In this document: piece by piece, positions 7,169 to 14,963 of the stretch
How the letters are laid out: every line of letters begins with the position of its first letter
Numbering within the stretch: the stretch's first letter is position 1
Source: Pseudomonas sp. G2-4
GTDB taxonomy: Bacteria > Pseudomonadota > Gammaproteobacteria > Pseudomonadales > Pseudomonadaceae
Reading direction: 5' to 3'
DNA: 64,000 bases
Assembly (NCBI RefSeq): GCF_030064125.1
Contig: NZ_CP125957.1
Coordinates: 930,001 to 994,000, forward strand
Made by a program: the position numbers and the translations under genes
The notes under the pieces: model-generated
The model's database searches: none
Told to the model about the DNA's origin: nothing
The model's input: the letters and a program-made list of their open reading frames with translations, nothing else

Positions 7169-7369
7169 TCCTGCGGATACTTATGCAGGCCCCATACCCA
7201 ATGCAAGATCCAGAGCGGTCTCAAGGCTGATTCAGTGGCACGTACGTACCTTAATGTCGCATCTGTATAACTTCTGACGCAGTTGACCGTTTGCGCGGTG
7301 TTTTTCAGCCTGAATTGCGCTCCGTGCCGGTGCGTCGCGAGGGGCGCGGCGCACCGGATTGGGGCGGTG

Positions 7370-8971
7370 TTACCTCTTCAAACCCACGCCGTAGAAGGGT
7401 GTGAGGCCGAATGGGCTGAGTTTGAAATCCACCACTTGCCTGTTTATCGGTTGGAAGACCGTGGAGTTGGCGATGGGCGTGATGGGCACCTGTTGCTTGA
7501 GGATTTTCTGCGCTTGTCGATACAAATCGATCCGCTGCTGGCGGTCGGTGGAGACTTTGGCTTGCTGGATCAGCCGGTCATACGCCGGGTCGCACCACTT
7601 GGCGTAGTTGCTGCCCTTGACCGCCGCGCAGCTGTACAGCACGCCCAGCCAGTTGTCCGGATCGCCGTTGTCGCCGGTCCAGCCGTAAATCATTGCGTCG
7701 TGTTCGCCATTTTTTGCGCGCTTGATGTACTCGCCCCATTCATAGCTGACGATGTTGGCTTTGATCCCGATTTTGGCCCAGTCCTGCTGGATCATCTGCG
7801 CAGACATTCGCGCATTGGGGTTGGAAGCGCGCTGCACCGTCATCGCCCATAAATCGATGGTTGTACCGGGCGCAACTCCGGCCTCCTTGAGTAGCGCCTT
7901 GGCCTTGGTGACGTCATGGGGCGCGTCCTGGATGGTGGGGTCGAACGACCACTGGGCCGGTGGCAAGGCGTTTTGCGCCAGTTGCCCGGCACTTTGGTAA
8001 ACAGCCTTGATGATTGCCGGTTTATCGATGGCCATGTCCAGCGCCTGGCGGACCTTGAGCTGGTCCAGGGGCGGGTGCGTGACGTTGTAGGCCAGGAAAC
8101 CCAGGTTGAACCCCGGTTGCTTGAGCACTTGCAGGTTCGGGTCTTGCTCCATCACTTCGATGTCGGCCGGGCGTGGGTAGCCGCTGACCTGGCATTCGTT
8201 TTTCTTGAGTTTCTGCAGGCGCACGGCGGCGTCGGGGGTGATGGAGAAGATCAGGTTGTCGAGTTTCACGTCCTCAGGTTTCCAGTACGCGGTGTTGCCG
8301 GCGTAGCGGATCTGCGTGTCCTTTTGATAGCGCTTGAATACGAACGGACCGGTGCCAATGGGCTTCTGATTGAGGTCGCCGGCCTTGCCTTCCTTCAACA
8401 ACTGCGCCGCGTATTCGGCGGACTGTACCGACGCAAAACTCATCGCCAGGTTCTGCACGAAGGCCGCGTCGACGTTGTTCAGGTTAAAGCGCACGGTGTG
8501 CTCGTCGACTTTTTCGACGCTTTTGATCGTGGTGTTCAGGCCCATGTCGGTGAAGTACGGCGACTCGGTGGGGTAGGCCTGGCGGAACGGGTGTTGTGGG
8601 TCGAGCAGGCGCTGGAAGGTGAACAGCACGTCGTCGGCGTTGAAGTCGCGGCTGGGGGTGAAGTAGTCGGTGGTGTGGAATTTCACCCCTTCACGCAGAT
8701 GGAAGGTGTAGGCCAGGCCGTCGGAGGATACGTCCCAGTTCGTGGCCAAGCCGGGTTCGACCTCGGTACCGCCGCGCTTGAATTGGGTGAGACGGTTGAA
8801 GACGGTTTCGGCCGAGGCATCGAAGTCGGTGCCGCTGGTGTATTGGCTGGGGTCGAACCCGGCGGGGCTGGCTTCGGAGCAGTAGACCAGGGTGGTGGCG
8901 GCTTGGGCCATTGGGGCGCTGCTGATCAGGGCGATGGTGAGTAGAAGAGGTTTGAAGGTGATCCGGTCCAT
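7370..8971 (-). CDS. Periplasmic dipeptide-binding protein (SBP_bac_5 family), first of four paralogues
   Basis: This is a 533-residue family 5 solute-binding protein and the most upstream gene of the dipeptide cluster. The signal peptide ends near PMAQA (residue 24). Family blocks VYCSEASPAGFDPSQY, YTFHLREGVKFHTTDYF and WTGDNGDPDNWLG are present. AAGGGA lies four bases before the ATG. In P. aeruginosa the corresponding genes dppA1 and dppA2 are separated from dppA3 by the regulator psdR and peptidase mdpA. Neither is found in this gap here, so local control must differ or be encoded elsewhere. Upstream lies a REP-containing gap; I could not assign a promoter with confidence. Confidence 0.88.
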   Translation of the reverse strand: MDRITFKPLLLTIALISSAPMAQAATTLVYCSEASPAGFDPSQYTSGTDFDASAETVFNRLTQFKRGGTEVEPGLATNWDVSSDGLAYTFHLREGVKFHTTDYFTPSRDFNADDVLFTFQRLLDPQHPFRQAYPTESPYFTDMGLNTTIKSVEKVDEHTVRFNLNNVDAAFVQNLAMSFASVQSAEYAAQLLKEGKAGDLNQKPIGTGPFVFKRYQKDTQIRYAGNTAYWKPEDVKLDNLIFSITPDAAVRLQKLKKNECQVSGYPRPADIEVMEQDPNLQVLKQPGFNLGFLAYNVTHPPLDQLKVRQALDMAIDKPAIIKAVYQSAGQLAQNALPPAQWSFDPTIQDAPHDVTKAKALLKEAGVAPGTTIDLWAMTVQRASNPNARMSAQMIQQDWAKIGIKANIVSYEWGEYIKRAKNGEHDAMIYGWTGDNGDPDNWLGVLYSCAAVKGSNYAKWCDPAYDRLIQQAKVSTDRQQRIDLYRQAQKILKQQVPITPIANSTVFQPINRQVVDFKLSPFGLTPFYGVGLKR

Positions 8972-9080
8972 GAAATCCCTTGGGGTGGTGAGGTTTTCAG
9001 GAGAGTAGCGTTGCGGGTGGGGGTGTTGGAAATATCGAAAAGTGAGGGGGGCTGTTGGGTTTGGGTATAGCGCTTTGGAC

Positions 9081-9230
9081 GAGGCGGCCTGACAGCCGGC
9101 CTGGTTCTCCCGGGTGTACTTCGATCAAGCTGTGGGAGCGAGCTTGCTCGCGATGGCGGCTTGACAGCCGGCCTGGTTCGCCTGGTCGTACGCCGATCCA
9201 TTGTGGGAGCGGGCTGCCCGCGAAGGCGGT
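9081..9230. repeat. Tandem pair of about 75-bp units, each containing a REP
   Basis: Two direct copies (about 9081-9153 and 9154-9228) share a GACAGCCGGCCTGGTT block followed by a diverged spacer and then a REP of the TGTGGGAGCGAGCTTGCTCGCG type. In the second copy the REP has changed to GGGAGCGGGCTGCCCGCG, keeping its own pairing. REPs here run in the same orientation, unlike the inverted doublets elsewhere. Confidence 0.75.
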
Positions 9231-9246
9231 CTAAATGAGATGCTTT

Positions 9247-9927
9247 TTAAGCCGGGATCTGCACGACTATCCAGGAGACGTCATCATCGACATGAATGGG
9301 ATCAAGCCTCTCGACTTCCAGTAGCTTGGCCTGTGTTGCATCACTCAAGTCAGCCCAAAAGCCATCGGTTGCAAAAACCAGTTGTTCACCTTCAATGGTC
9401 GTTCTTGTGACTATTTCGGGGTCTGGTTTATTCCGTGCTTTGAAACACCGGCTTATCCGATGCCGGCCTGGGTCTGCTGCCAGTTGTCGGTGGTCACGAT
9501 CGCGCCTCCAGTTGGCGAGACAGTGCGGTGCCGTGAACCAAGTGATCGGGCTGTTTGAAAAAGCCGCGCCAGCGCAGCAGTCGCCTTCGTAAGCGACGGT
9601 GAGAAGTCCCGCGGCGGCTACACCGACTAGATAACTCGCCGACCCTGTGAAGGCTGTCGAGAAGAGCCGGTCGTGTACGTCATTCAACACCTCCTTGAGT
9701 AATGCGGCCGCTTCTTCATGGCTGTTATCCGAACAACCCTCCGCTATTTTCTCGCAATACAGCGTGAGTATTTGGTCAGCCAACGCCTGTGCGAGTTGGC
9801 CGCTGCCTGGTCTTGACGTGCCGTCTACGACGACAAACAGCCCTCGTGTTCCGTCGAACCTTGCTCCTACACCATCTCGGTTCTCATCTCTTGCCCGCCC
9901 TTTGACAGACTTGGCTGAGTGAATCAT
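9247..9927 (-). CDS. PP2C-like serine/threonine phosphatase, third gene of an accessory module
   Basis: This 226-residue protein has the metal-binding skeleton of the PPM/PP2C family in order: R13-x-x-N16-x-D18, VVVDG with D35-G36, GD near 115-116, TDGFW with D188-G189, and DDD at 214-216 before VSWIVV. All expected aspartates are present, so it is probably an active Mn2+/Mg2+-dependent phosphatase, compact and with no transmembrane segment. Its ATG overlaps the stop of the nucleotidyltransferase gene by four bases (ATGA), which implies translational coupling. The segment around residues 136-160 (WRRDRDHRQLAADPGRH) is unusually rich in charge but in frame with good PP2C sequence on either side, so I see no frameshift. 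What it dephosphorylates is unknown; its partner proteins are an obvious guess. Confidence 0.75.
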   Translation of the reverse strand: MIHSAKSVKGRARDENRDGVGARFDGTRGLFVVVDGTSRPGSGQLAQALADQILTLYCEKIAEGCSDNSHEEAAALLKEVLNDVHDRLFSTAFTGSASYLVGVAAAGLLTVAYEGDCCAGAAFSNSPITWFTAPHCLANWRRDRDHRQLAADPGRHRISRCFKARNKPDPEIVTRTTIEGEQLVFATDGFWADLSDATQAKLLEVERLDPIHVDDDVSWIVVQIPA

Positions 9928-10628
9928 TTGATGTCACCCAGTTGTTTCAGGCGCTGATAAATCAGTCTGTCTCGGCCTGGGTTTGCGCGGACGGAATGGA
10001 AGCTTTGTATTACATAATCCAGTGAGTCGAGTGCCAGCAGCCCGGTGATGCCGGCCGCAATATACGTTCGTAGCGTCTGATCTGCTTGGCTAATCTCCTC
10101 TAGCAAGCTCTCTCGGCCCTCTACGATGAGAACGATATCCTCGACATCCTTGTGATAGGCATCGCCGTTGCCGCGGCCTTTGAATGCTTCGAGCTTTGTC
10201 GCGACAAAGTAGGCGGGTTTGAAAATTTTGATCGCAACCCCGCTGGGCAGATTGAGCGTGTCTGCGTTCGCAAGGCCATCCACAAACCAGCGGTTTTCAT
10301 AGCCGAGCACCTCTTTCACGGACGGCATGACGTCGACAATCACATCGTTGAACTTGAACCGGCACGTTACGTCGCTGTACTCGGCAGTAATCTTGAAACC
10401 CTTATCGGCCAAGCGCTCTGTCAATCTTTGCCAGTCAGCGATGCCGCCTAGCTCAATGACCAAGTCGACATCGTCAGTGCTGCGGATATCGTCCAGCACA
10501 ATCTCGTCAGTGCACAGAAGCCAGGTGGTAGAGCCGCCAACGAAGGCGACCTCTTTTAAAAGCTCGTCACCCAATCCCTGTGCGACGGCACCCAGCATCT
10601 CGTAATTGTGATCTGAAGCGATGCTCAA
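9924..10628 (-). CDS. AbiEii/MNT-like nucleotidyltransferase, second gene of an accessory module
   Basis: This 234-residue protein has a nucleotidyltransferase fold signature: GGS at 31-33, DDVD at 52-55 and a third acidic residue at D98 (VDVMPS). Then come ATKLEAFKGRG (142-151) and DVEDIV (160-165), which are typical of the AbiEii/DUF1814 group. In characterised AbiE systems (type IV toxin-antitoxin) such an enzyme is the toxin, and MenA-type relatives add nucleotides to tRNA. The start appears to be TTG at 10628, four bases inside the upstream gene's stop (TTGA overlap), with AAGG about nine bases before it; the next in-frame ATG is ten codons later. Toxicity is inferred from the family, and housekeeping-like members also exist. 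Confidence 0.75.
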   Translation of the reverse strand: MSIASDHNYEMLGAVAQGLGDELLKEVAFVGGSTTWLLCTDEIVLDDIRSTDDVDLVIELGGIADWQRLTERLADKGFKITAEYSDVTCRFKFNDVIVDVMPSVKEVLGYENRWFVDGLANADTLNLPSGVAIKIFKPAYFVATKLEAFKGRGNGDAYHKDVEDIVLIVEGRESLLEEISQADQTLRTYIAAGITGLLALDSLDYVIQSFHSVRANPGRDRLIYQRLKQLGDIK

Positions 10629-11380
10629 AGGCCCATACCTTTTTTAAGCAGCTGGATGGCGACGCTGGTTTCGCGAGGGCCGCCCAACCGTATCGAGTCC
10701 ACCAAGGCTAAGTAGTGATAGAGGGTTCGGTCCTTCTTCACGGCCTCAGGTACTGTTTTGTAAATCGGTTCTACGGTCTGGCCGCGCTCGGTGCCGTGCG
10801 GGTCGGGCCAGACATGGATGTTTCCTCCGGCGCTTTTAAGGTGTTTGGAAAGCACCGGCGATGCAAACCCAGTTGGAATTCCTCGCGCCAGGGCACCGGG
10901 CTTGACGGGGAAAAAGTACTTCAGCGCGTGCTCGGTGATCTTTAAAAGTGCCAGGCGATTCACTTTGGGCAAAGAGGTTTCATAGTCGTTTGTTACCAGT
11001 CCGGCCTCCCGGCACCGGGCGATCGAGTTCGATATTTCGCTTTTGCTCAAGCCCAAGGACTCAGCCAAGGCTCTGAGGGTGTAGCGGTCTTCCCATTTGG
11101 CAGCGGCTCTTTTCTGGGAGGTATCATCGTCGGCGTCCCAGCCTTCCCACTGGAACGAGTCTGCGTCGATGATGCGTTTTATGGCGACCTCTAAGTTGTC
11201 CCAGGATTTTTCAGGCGGTGGGGAGGTGATCAATTTTGGTTCAGGGCTGTAGTCGTCCGGCAGCAAGTCAATCTGGGATAGGCCGCCCCATGCCACTGTT
11301 TGGCTGCCGGTCGGAGACACTTCTTCCTGCGCGTGAAGGCTGGCCATTTTGTACATGAGCAAAATATCTTGACTTTTCAC
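10625..11380 (-). CDS. Winged-helix DNA-binding protein, first gene of an accessory module (possible autoregulator or antitoxin)
   Basis: From the GTG at 11380 this is 251 residues, beginning with a KSQDILLMYK segment that I recall as the conserved start of an uncharacterised HTH family often paired with nucleotidyltransferases. A helix-turn-helix lies at about 100-129 (YTLRALAESLGLSKSEISNS). The C-terminal half has family-like motifs (YFFPVKPGALARGIPT, HVWPDPHGTERGQ, LVDSIRLGGPRE). About 70 residues rich in acidic residues and proline (PDDYSPEPK) separate the KSQD segment from the HTH, apparently an insertion. Earlier starts exist (ATG 11407, TTG 11425), but a promoter at 11426-11454 would place transcription start near 11419, which makes the TTG unlikely. 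None has a strong ribosome-binding site. Antitoxin function is inferred from gene order. Confidence 0.65.
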   Translation of the reverse strand: MKSQDILLMYKMASLHAQEEVSPTGSQTVAWGGLSQIDLLPDDYSPEPKLITSPPPEKSWDNLEVAIKRIIDADSFQWEGWDADDDTSQKRAAAKWEDRYTLRALAESLGLSKSEISNSIARCREAGLVTNDYETSLPKVNRLALLKITEHALKYFFPVKPGALARGIPTGFASPVLSKHLKSAGGNIHVWPDPHGTERGQTVEPIYKTVPEAVKKDRTLYHYLALVDSIRLGGPRETSVAIQLLKKGMGL

Positions 11381-11398
11381 GCGGGTTAAATCTCTGCC

Positions 11399-11424
11399 TG
11401 TCCACATTCCATAAATCGTGGACA
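11399..11424. promoter_or_regulatory. Inverted repeat at the predicted transcription start (operator candidate)
   Basis: TGTCCAC (11399-11405) and GTGGACA (11418-11424) form a perfect 7-bp inverted repeat with a 12-bp spacer. It lies immediately downstream of the -10 element of the promoter reading into the HTH gene, where a bound repressor would block transcription. Autorepression through inverted repeats is the known behaviour of AbiEi-type antitoxins; its application here is inference. Confidence 0.55.
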
Positions 11425-11425
11425 A

Positions 11426-11454
11426 GTGTTACGCGCTGTTTTTTATGATGTCAA
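11426..11454 (-). promoter_or_regulatory. Sigma-70 promoter for the HTH-nucleotidyltransferase-phosphatase unit
   Basis: On the minus strand a perfect -35 TTGACA (11454-11449) is followed by a 17-base spacer and a weak -10 TAACAC (11431-11426). The AT-rich spacer stands out from the GC-rich surroundings. Confidence 0.6.
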
Positions 11455-11523
11455 ATCTTATTTTTAGAGTCCGTTCTGTAGAAATTCCTGCGGAGGTCAA
11501 GCACCCGTCGCCGAACATCCACC

Positions 11524-11654
11524 GTGGCGAGGGGCTTGCTCCCGCTGGGGCGCGAAGCGGCCCCAAAATCAGCGACTGCGTTTATCTGACACGACGCAGT
11601 GCCTGGGTTGGGTCTGCTGCGCAGCCCAGCGGGAGCAAGCTCCCTCGCCACGGG
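11524..11654. repeat. REP doublet (GTGGCGAGGGAGCTTGCTCC family)
   Basis: Two inverted REP units enclose an interior that can itself fold. The interior (AAAATCAGCGACTGCG onward) is nearly the same as that of the doublet at 12437-12570 on the other side of the DUF6124 gene. The left unit has GAGGGGCTTGCTCC where other copies have GAGGGAGCTTGCTCC. Confidence 0.85.
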
Positions 11655-11889
11655 GTTTGCGGTGGTGCGGACGGCTGCATAAATCATTCAGGTGCGTCGG
11701 AAGGATCCGCTCTCCAGAACGAAATATCCGACAAGCTTTTAAGGTTGTCCCTCGGAAGTGGGCTCTCTAATCTTTTTCCTGTCGCTGCCATTCAGCGACC
11801 GGGCGTGAGAAACCCGAATAATAGGCATCCAGCCTCTGTACCTGCATAATTGCCGCCAGCTTATCCGCTGCCTGTAGTAGATGCATTAT

Positions 11890-13350: not shown

Positions 13351-13703
13351 GAAAGCTCCTTGGGATGAGGCGCAGGGGTGAGGTCCGGGCCTGCGTGAAG
13401 GATAAGACTCTAGCTTTTATGGCTCGGTTCGCACAGTTACAACTTCTATACAGATATCTGAAGCCAACGAAGAACCCTGTGGCGAGGGAGCTTGCTCCCG
13501 CTCGACTGCGCAGCAGTCGCAAATCCGGCATCGCTCGGTCGATTGATGGGGCCTGCTGCGCAGGCCAGCGGGAGCAAGCTCCCTCGCCACAGGGGGTATA
13601 TGTAGTATTGAGAGCTGTGGCGCTTTGCCGCATAGCTGCCTCTGCAACCCGCGCCTTGGTTATACTCCGTGCGATCCGCCTGGAGCGCTCATCAGGAGAG
13701 CTC
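13351..13703. other. 353-bp divergent intergenic region between the SIMPL gene and roxS
   Basis: It contains a REP doublet at 13478-13596. Past this lies a possible -10 element TATACT (13661-13666), for which I found no matching -35, then CAGGAG, the roxS ribosome-binding site. No small gene was evident. Confidence 0.5.
13478..13596. repeat. REP doublet (GTGGCGAGGGAGCTTGCTCC family)
   Basis: Inverted units at 13478-13500 and 13565-13596 enclose a short interior beginning CTCGACTGCGCAGCAGTCGC, itself an inverted repeat. Confidence 0.85.
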
Positions 13704-14963
13704 ATGCTCGCCCCTTTGCAAATGACTTCCGCCTCCCGCCAGAACCTCTGGCGCCTGACGTTTATCCGTATTCTGGTCCTGGCGGCCCAGGCCGGCTCCG
13801 TGGGGCTTGCCTATTGGTTCGACCTGCTGCCGTTGCCCTGGCTGCAACTGGCGATCACGCTGGTCTGTTCCAGCGTGCTCTGCGCGCTGACGGCCATCCG
13901 CCTGCGTACCTCGTGGCCGGTGACTGAGCTGGAATACGCCGTACAACTGGCCTGCGACCTGTTTATCCACAGCGCGCTGCTGTATTTTTCCGGCGGTTCC
14001 ACCAACCCCTTCGTCTCCTATTACCTGGTGCCGCTGACCATCGCCGCGGTGACCTTGCCGTGGCGGTTTTCGCTGATTCTTTCCGGCATCGCCCTGGCGC
14101 TGTACACCTTGCTGCTGGCGCGGTTCTATCCACTGGAAACCTTTCCCATCGCCCGGGAGAACCTGCAGATCTACGGCATGTGGCTGAGTTTCGCCTTGGC
14201 GGCGGCGGTCATCACGTTTTTTGCCGCGCGCATGGCCGAGGAGTTGCGTCGCCAGGAAGAACTGCGGGCCATCCGCCGGGAGGAGGGCCTGCGGGACGAG
14301 CAATTGCTGGCCGTGGCAACCCAGGCCGCCGGTGCCGCCCATGAATTGGGCACGCCATTGGCGACCATGAGCGTGCTGCTCAAGGAGATGCGCCAGGATC
14401 ACCACGATCCGGCGCTGCAGGACGATCTCAGCGTGTTGCAGGATCAGGTCAAGCTCTGCAAGGAGACCCTGCAGTACCTGGTGCGTGCGGCCGAGGCTAA
14501 CCGCCGGCTGGACATCGACATGCAGGCGGTCACCTTCTGGCTTGACGATGCCCTGAACCGCTGGCACCTGATGCGCCCGGAAGCCAGTTACCGCTTCCAG
14601 TGCTTGGGCCAGGGCACGGTGCCACGCATGGCGCCCCCGCCAGACCTGACCCAGGCGCTGCTGAATTTGCTGAACAACGCCGCCGACGCCTGCCCCGAAG
14701 GCCTGGAAGTGGCGCTGGACTGGAACGCCTATGAGCTGACCATCAGTATCCGCGACCACGGCGCCGGCGTTCCGCTGGCGATTGCCGAGCAGATCGGCAA
14801 GCCGTTCTACACCACCAAGGGCAAAGGTTTCGGCCTCGGCCTGTTTTTGAGCAAAGCCAGCGTGACACGCGCCGGCGGCTCGGTGAAACTCTACCCCCAT
14901 GAGGAAGGCGGCACGCTCACCGAGCTGCGCTTGCCTCATGCCGACCGAGGAGACGAAGCATGA
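13704..14963 (+). CDS. roxS: Redox-sensing histidine kinase RoxS (RegB/PrrB family)
   Basis: This 419-residue membrane kinase has about six hydrophobic segments in the first 175 residues. The RegB-family motif GGSTNPF (97-103, a proposed quinone-binding site) lies after the third. The phosphorylation motif AAHELGTPLATM has H213. Cys252 (KLCKETL) lies where the redox-active cysteine of RegB is expected. The C-terminal ATPase domain has an N-box LLNLLNNAADAC and the G-box GKGFGLGLFL. The start at 13704 has CAGGAG five bases upstream. It overlaps roxR by four bases (ATGA). RoxSR/RegBA systems adjust respiratory oxidases and related genes to redox state, and RoxSR of Pseudomonas responds to respiratory inhibition. 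The family call is strong. Confidence 0.92.
   Translation: MLAPLQMTSASRQNLWRLTFIRILVLAAQAGSVGLAYWFDLLPLPWLQLAITLVCSSVLCALTAIRLRTSWPVTELEYAVQLACDLFIHSALLYFSGGSTNPFVSYYLVPLTIAAVTLPWRFSLILSGIALALYTLLLARFYPLETFPIARENLQIYGMWLSFALAAAVITFFAARMAEELRRQEELRAIRREEGLRDEQLLAVATQAAGAAHELGTPLATMSVLLKEMRQDHHDPALQDDLSVLQDQVKLCKETLQYLVRAAEANRRLDIDMQAVTFWLDDALNRWHLMRPEASYRFQCLGQGTVPRMAPPPDLTQALLNLLNNAADACPEGLEVALDWNAYELTISIRDHGAGVPLAIAEQIGKPFYTTKGKGFGLGLFLSKASVTRAGGSVKLYPHEEGGTLTELRLPHADRGDEA

Follow-up and report, generated by a model that had tools for sequence, protein, structure and literature searches.

Genes and setting of the module

Three overlapping open reading frames (ORFs) occupy the minus strand of the window (the whole stretch of 64,000 nucleotides that was analysed) at 11425..10625, 10628..9924 and 9927..9247, and are referred to here as genes A, B and C. 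Gene A (10625..11380 when read from a GTG start at 11380, the ORF itself reaching 11425 with a TTG start) encodes a winged helix-turn-helix (wHTH) partner that is likely to be both antitoxin and autorepressor, gene B (9924..10628) a MenT/AbiEii-type nucleotidyltransferase (NTase), and gene C (9247..9927) a PP2C-type Ser/Thr phosphatase. The three genes are adjacent and in the order of the PDC-M21 entry of PADLOC-DB 2.0.0 (2023), and each protein matches its PDC-M21 model over most of its length (A, E=5.9e-80; B, E=2.3e-92; C, E=7.6e-66). An earlier note on this DNA had described a three-gene module with four-base overlaps at both junctions, had assigned its products to these three families and had reported a GC content below that of the neighbours. 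The ORF coordinates bear out the overlaps, the family assignments stand on profile matches, predicted folds and residue conservation, and the GC fraction is 0.537-0.566 in the 1-kb intervals of the module versus mostly 0.57-0.64 in those lying wholly outside it.

Comparison of genomes indicates that the module is a clean insertion beside dpp-like genes, since in a relative (G010) positions 9072-11630 of the window are substituted by 27 bp. This module-bearing segment has REP-like palindromes at either edge (9083-9198 and 11531-11643), and both edges are also copied elsewhere in the genome. The flanks of the insertion are shared by a single genome (G289, locus L038) among loci L031-L160, several of which comprise just 1.5 kb of flanking sequence. 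A histidine-kinase-like ORF, the neighbour named roxS in the earlier note, lies at 13365-14963, approximately 2 kb from the module; profile searches of A, B and C yielded no kinase match among these three proteins.

The start of gene A is likely the GTG at 11380..11378, and not position 11425 or 11454, because the N-terminus of the family is conserved as [M/V/L]-K-[S/G]-Q-D. Eighteen nucleotides upstream of this start lies a putative operator, the inverted repeat TGTCCAC-N12-GTGGACA (11399..11424, minus strand). The palindrome pattern is present in 72 of 107 upstream regions, against 0.225 expected from mononucleotide shuffles, which preserve base composition alone. The presence of a conserved palindrome just upstream of a gene encoding a wHTH protein suggests that A probably acts as an autorepressor on this element. 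A wider regulon was also considered for A and discarded, the pattern occurring 33 times in the genome versus 30 times for a reversed control. Two outgroup A-B pairs (L145, L148) carry a similarly built palindrome of different sequence (ATTCCG-N12-CGGAAT) before A. The single promoter previously proposed for the module was not recovered: a consensus scan of 9000-11700 returned no minus-strand promoter, and the candidate read by eye (11426..11454, minus strand) combines a perfect TTGACA (11454..11449) and a 17-bp spacer with a poor -10 element, TAACAC (11431..11426). The palindrome at 11424..11399 offers better evidence of a control region than this candidate.

Conservation and predicted folds of the three proteins

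In a comparison of predicted folds, the solved structures closest to B are those of MenT1, its T39-phosphorylated form among them, and of MenT3/TglT, in agreement with the likeness to HTH-NTase toxin-antitoxin pairs that had been proposed for the locus. The GG, DxD, third D, K and later D motifs of B are invariant in 47 of 47 sequences, and the invariant residues of the window protein are G31, G32, T51, D53, D55, D99, K145, D161 and D164. The Pfam AbiEii family yields no match for the window B, matches 33 of 47 B relatives at E<=0.1 (best 4.8e-6) and exceeds its cut-off in one relative (G009). An SgrA_ig-like Pfam identity was rejected, as the match lies below the cut-off and is inconsistent with the modelled fold. 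We consider it very likely that A and B form a MenAT/AbiE-like NTase module. T51, located two residues ahead of the catalytic Asp, is Thr in all 103 rows of the B tree and in 120 of the 120 homologues listed. It is kept with and without C and hence does not track C, and a correlation between the presence of C and the identity of the phosphoacceptor residue was discarded because this residue is invariant either way. MenT1 and MenT3 are both described, in the portions of the two papers available, as NTases under phospho-control (PMC11375011, PMC7205606), and the S78 phosphoacceptor of MenT3 is stated to behave like that of MenT1, with an unrelated antitoxin, MenA3 (PMC11375011).

The window A matches the Pfam families MarR_2 and HTH_24, both below threshold, and its AF2 model shows a wHTH, with residues 37-107 mostly of low confidence. 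Fold matches, obtained with VIA-align, which considers only the chains ranked highest by Foldseek, span mainly residues 2-177 (the wHTH part) and barely cover the C-terminal half. No fold name was obtained for that half, and A may or may not be a homologue of MenA or AbiEi. No solved antitoxin was found among the three sequence matches of A up to an E-value of 1. A WxGW motif between helix 1 and the core of the wHTH occurs in 62 of 69 A sequences accompanied by C versus 7 of 33 without it (102 rows, L061 being entered by hand as C-bearing). This raw association is strong, but it is not significant on independent pairs, once kinship is considered, and the motif was not retained as proof of an A-C contact. 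Two genomes (L050, L038) have a frameshift in A next to open B and C, which fits somewhat badly with an essential antitoxin, barring sequencing errors or a remnant that suffices.

C is predicted to be a PP2C phosphatase whose metal site is intact. An alignment profile built from C finds solved PP2C phosphatases (E 1.4e-14), the window C alone scoring 19 bits, below the Pfam cut-off of 24. All 66 full-length C sequences share residues D18, D35, D188, D215, D216 and W191, and N16 is found in 65 (5 of 71 rows were excluded as shorter). From the metal-binding role of such residues in the PP2C family, we take D18, D35, D188 and D216 to be the metal ligands, and C would thus possess all metal aspartates, as had been claimed. 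W191 sits in DGFW or DGYW in the 13 C sequences compared.

Distribution, inheritance and genomic context

In a sample of 298 genomes of the genus, B was identified in 46, all of which also encode A. Coordinates place a full-length C next to B in 39 of these 46 genomes, two others carrying a remnant of C (G251, and G167, where B is a remnant too) and five no C (G028, G054, G123, G148, G259). In a sample of the phylum, 33 of 398 genomes, from 19 of 212 genera, contain B, a few of the matches being weak. At the 26 loci analyzed from this sample A always adjoins B, and C was seen in three; among the 23 C-less loci, C is unobservable in three (L137, L149, L156) because the contig stops within B or shortly behind it. 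C is hence not obligatory for the A-B pair. In the best 80 of 382 relatives on genome contigs, a selection whose counts lean towards Pseudomonas, A adjoins B by script in 79, the called B ORF overlapping A in the remaining one (L122); C is no more than 250 bp away in 63 and intact in 60 of them, and 17 lack C by script, one of these (L061) having a split C. Two loci, L094 (Geobacter) and L120 (Wolfebacteria), stem from metagenome bins and are possibly mis-binned. Among plasmids, B is present in 115 of 72,556 records, and the trio occurs on plasmids of Pseudomonas, Providencia and Agrobacterium. These occurrences, together with the 39 genomes of the genus and other loci, show that the phosphatase is not confined to a few close strains, the outcome that the earlier note had named as adverse to its proposal. 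Carriage of the trio by phages was rejected, since B is absent from all 50,697 phage records and the two loci detected on viral contigs are A-B pairs without a C match. One of these, on an IMG/VR contig (L188, 5387-6630), precedes ORFs that by eye resemble a DNA adenine methylase and a lysozyme. Further afield, the genome of Corynebacterium glutamicum, used as a control, matches the A and B models, and the pair may reach Actinomycetota. An Azotobacter plasmid (L161) carries at 7360-9124 and 1728-2543 an AbiEii/AbiGii-annotated gene with an unnamed gene ahead and a short unknown gene behind, and a PP2C-annotated gene approximately 5 kb away on the opposite strand.

All C-positive rows of a B tree (n=103) fall inside one 86-row group with SH-aLRT support of 99, and C-less A-B pairs occur both outside and inside this group, with at least eight changes in the state of C; this was a quick tree with long branches, from which seven short or unmatched rows were excluded. 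Over 66 loci, the pairwise distances of the three proteins are strongly correlated (A-B 0.947, B-C 0.968, A-C 0.945), with none of 500 permutations as high, and the mean C distance among adjacent copies is 0.62. The tree and these correlations point to C as an old, co-inherited partner of the pair that has been lost at times. Four loci (L036, L061, L085 and L091) carry a broken C next to open A and B, which argues against C as the antitoxin. Lesions of B comprise an N-terminal truncation (L049), the deletion of most of the gene (L037) and split genes (G164, G259). Two genomes contain two copies of the module each, G282 (C16 and C53) and G285 (C107 and C301), and these copies lie apart in the B tree (L087 and L062, and L114 and L056, respectively).

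A type I restriction-modification (R-M) operon holds the module in 16 of the best 80 loci (8 with the pair and 8 with the trio), a count that may miss unlike R-M genes, since these were sought via similarity to the genes of one locus. The usual order is hsdR - A - B - (C) - hsdM - hsdS, the exceptions being L083, where no hsdR was seen and the contig starts 1.2 kb before A, and L104, where the hsdR ORF ends 2.4 kb before A. Profile assignment of the R-M subunits in one locus of each kind (L100, PDLC03042/PDLC03026; L101, PDLC03049/PDLC03025) revealed unlike type I families. The palindrome directly precedes A, ahead of hsdM and hsdS, in 8 of the 8 R-M loci that have C. B keeps an invariant active site in R-M-embedded and stand-alone copies alike. 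The window copy does not lie between hsdR and hsdM and has no R-M operon around it. Two C-less pairs (L115, L126) were seen amid defence-looking ORFs, whose translations, read by eye, resemble NERD, Mrr and reverse transcriptase proteins or else ATPase and nuclease proteins.

A candidate phospho-switch and its relation to known systems

The interest of the module lies in the coincidence of a MenT-fold NTase, a conserved phosphoacceptor and a PP2C encoded in the same operon. Beyond the evidence of sequence and fold, the mechanism outlined here is one that we infer. By analogy with MenT1 and MenT3, A would induce B to phosphorylate itself at T51 and so become inactive, and self-phosphorylation of B would dispense with a kinase gene in the module. 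PP2C enzymes generally prefer phospho-Thr. C would strip the phosphate from T51, whether in response to a cue (phage infection, for example) or continuously, in opposition to A. Once active, B would attach nucleotides to a target, which by analogy could be tRNA, and thereby halt growth. An action of C on phospho-B at T51 that re-arms the enzyme is a real possibility, which we advance tentatively. The same caution applies to the module as a whole being a MenAT/AbiE-like NTase toxin-antitoxin pair with a phosphatase of its own, probably serving as a phage-defence or mobile-element maintenance unit. The complete three-part switch, in which A silences B via Thr51 self-phosphorylation and a dedicated PP2C releases it, possibly on sensing phage or foreign DNA, and which type I restriction operons recurrently host, is proposed with reserve. 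Against these proposals stand the A-B pairs in which C was not seen, namely 17 of the best 80 of 382 relatives by script (one, L061, with a split C) and 23 of 26 loci of the phylum sample (three of them cut off by contig ends), since those of them in the tree retain Thr51.

Alternatively, C might target another phosphoprotein (A, a host protein or the target of a phage kinase) and act as a sensor or relay beside an ordinary NTase toxin-antitoxin pair, as its preference for WxGW-bearing variants of A (62/69 vs 7/33) and its lineage-specific distribution, set against a universal T51, would suggest. We judge this unlikely, since the WxGW association does not hold on independent pairs and the module contains no kinase, whereas auto-phosphorylation, known for relatives of B, would supply a substrate from within. 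A PP2C fold performing de-AMPylation has a precedent in a bacterial effector. This precedent, a writer-eraser logic and the four-base overlap between C and B would be in keeping with C erasing the modification placed by B on its target, and hence acting as a second antitoxin. However, many lineages possess A-B without C, and the four loci with broken C beside open A and B indicate that its loss is tolerated, making such a role rather improbable.

The remaining alternatives concern the pair and its surroundings. Residence of 16 of the best 80 of 382 relatives in R-M operons from two or more dissimilar type I families, the palindrome just ahead of A in all eight C-positive R-M loci, and a published parallel, the R-M island of type I that contains DarTG2 (PMC12255303), would be expected if A-B(-C) mainly regulated or guarded the neighbouring R-M system and stand-alone copies, such as that of the window, were mobile remnants. 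Yet in this comparison no R-M operon was seen around the module in the other 64 of these 80 loci, the window copy likewise has none, and B has an invariant active site with or without R-M surroundings, so that we regard this explanation as improbable. Least credible is an ordinary type IV pair with a functionally unlinked, hitch-hiking phosphatase: C is frequently missing, as this would predict, but it remains adjacent despite deep divergence (mean distance 0.62), its distances follow those of B (0.968) and its own active site is invariant. We consider hitch-hiking very improbable.

Returning to the phospho-switch, the work on MenT3/TglT left a gap that C could fill. According to the sections of that study available, release of the toxin requires a phosphatase not yet identified, and PstP dephosphorylates TglT slowly, taking 12 hours in vitro (PMC7205606); C, like this slow stand-in, is a PP2C, and it is encoded in the operon. 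If the proposal is correct, the module would constitute a testable three-protein phospho-switch, toxin release would be explained without antitoxin degradation, and a catalogued defence candidate, PDC-M21, would gain a concrete mechanism.

PDC-M21 comprises the same proteins in the same order and is itself a catalogue entry, a phage-defence candidate, so that the trio is not the undescribed arrangement it had been taken for. Entries of this kind derive from 'guilt-by-embedding', and for the majority of core-defensome entries validation by experiment is stated to be pending (PMC12988326, PMC10855318). The name PDC-M21 was found in the main text of none of the papers searched, and no trio of an NTase toxin-antitoxin pair and a phosphatase is described among the titles and abstract openings listed for these topics. 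With AbiE, the A-B pair shares the HTH-then-NTase order and the four-nucleotide overlap (PMC3985639, available portion) and, like A, the wHTH partner is preceded by inverted repeats (PMC7319586, likewise in part). The classical AbiEii proteins retrieved from 59 genomes of the genus differ from B, 7 of 7 carrying Ser where B has its phosphoacceptor Thr, and none of the seven has a C match within 1.5 kb on each side. C shares metal-site residues and fold family with Stp1/PstP-type PP2C enzymes and is distinguished by W191, invariant in 66 of 66 sequences. DarT is not known to be an NTase. DarTG2/RptR, a module with its own regulator inside the hsd operon of a type I R-M island, parallels the embedded A-B(-C) loci and differs in that RptR is a 79-residue protein (PMC12255303, available text) and in that the window copy is not R-M-embedded. 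MenAT1 and MenAT3 (TakA-TglT) have in common with the module the fold of B, the [T/S]-x-D phosphoacceptor position and a small two-gene core (PMC11375011); the acceptor in B is Thr, as in MenT1 and unlike MenT3, and the module has a phosphatase gene, none being described for MenAT1 or MenAT3 in the text examined (the word 'phosphatase' occurs zero times in PMC11375011). The earlier note had presented a phosphorylation-dependent NTase as a new arrangement: phospho-control as such is already known from MenT1 and MenT3 (PMC11375011, PMC7205606, both in part), whereas a phosphatase encoded in the operon would be new.
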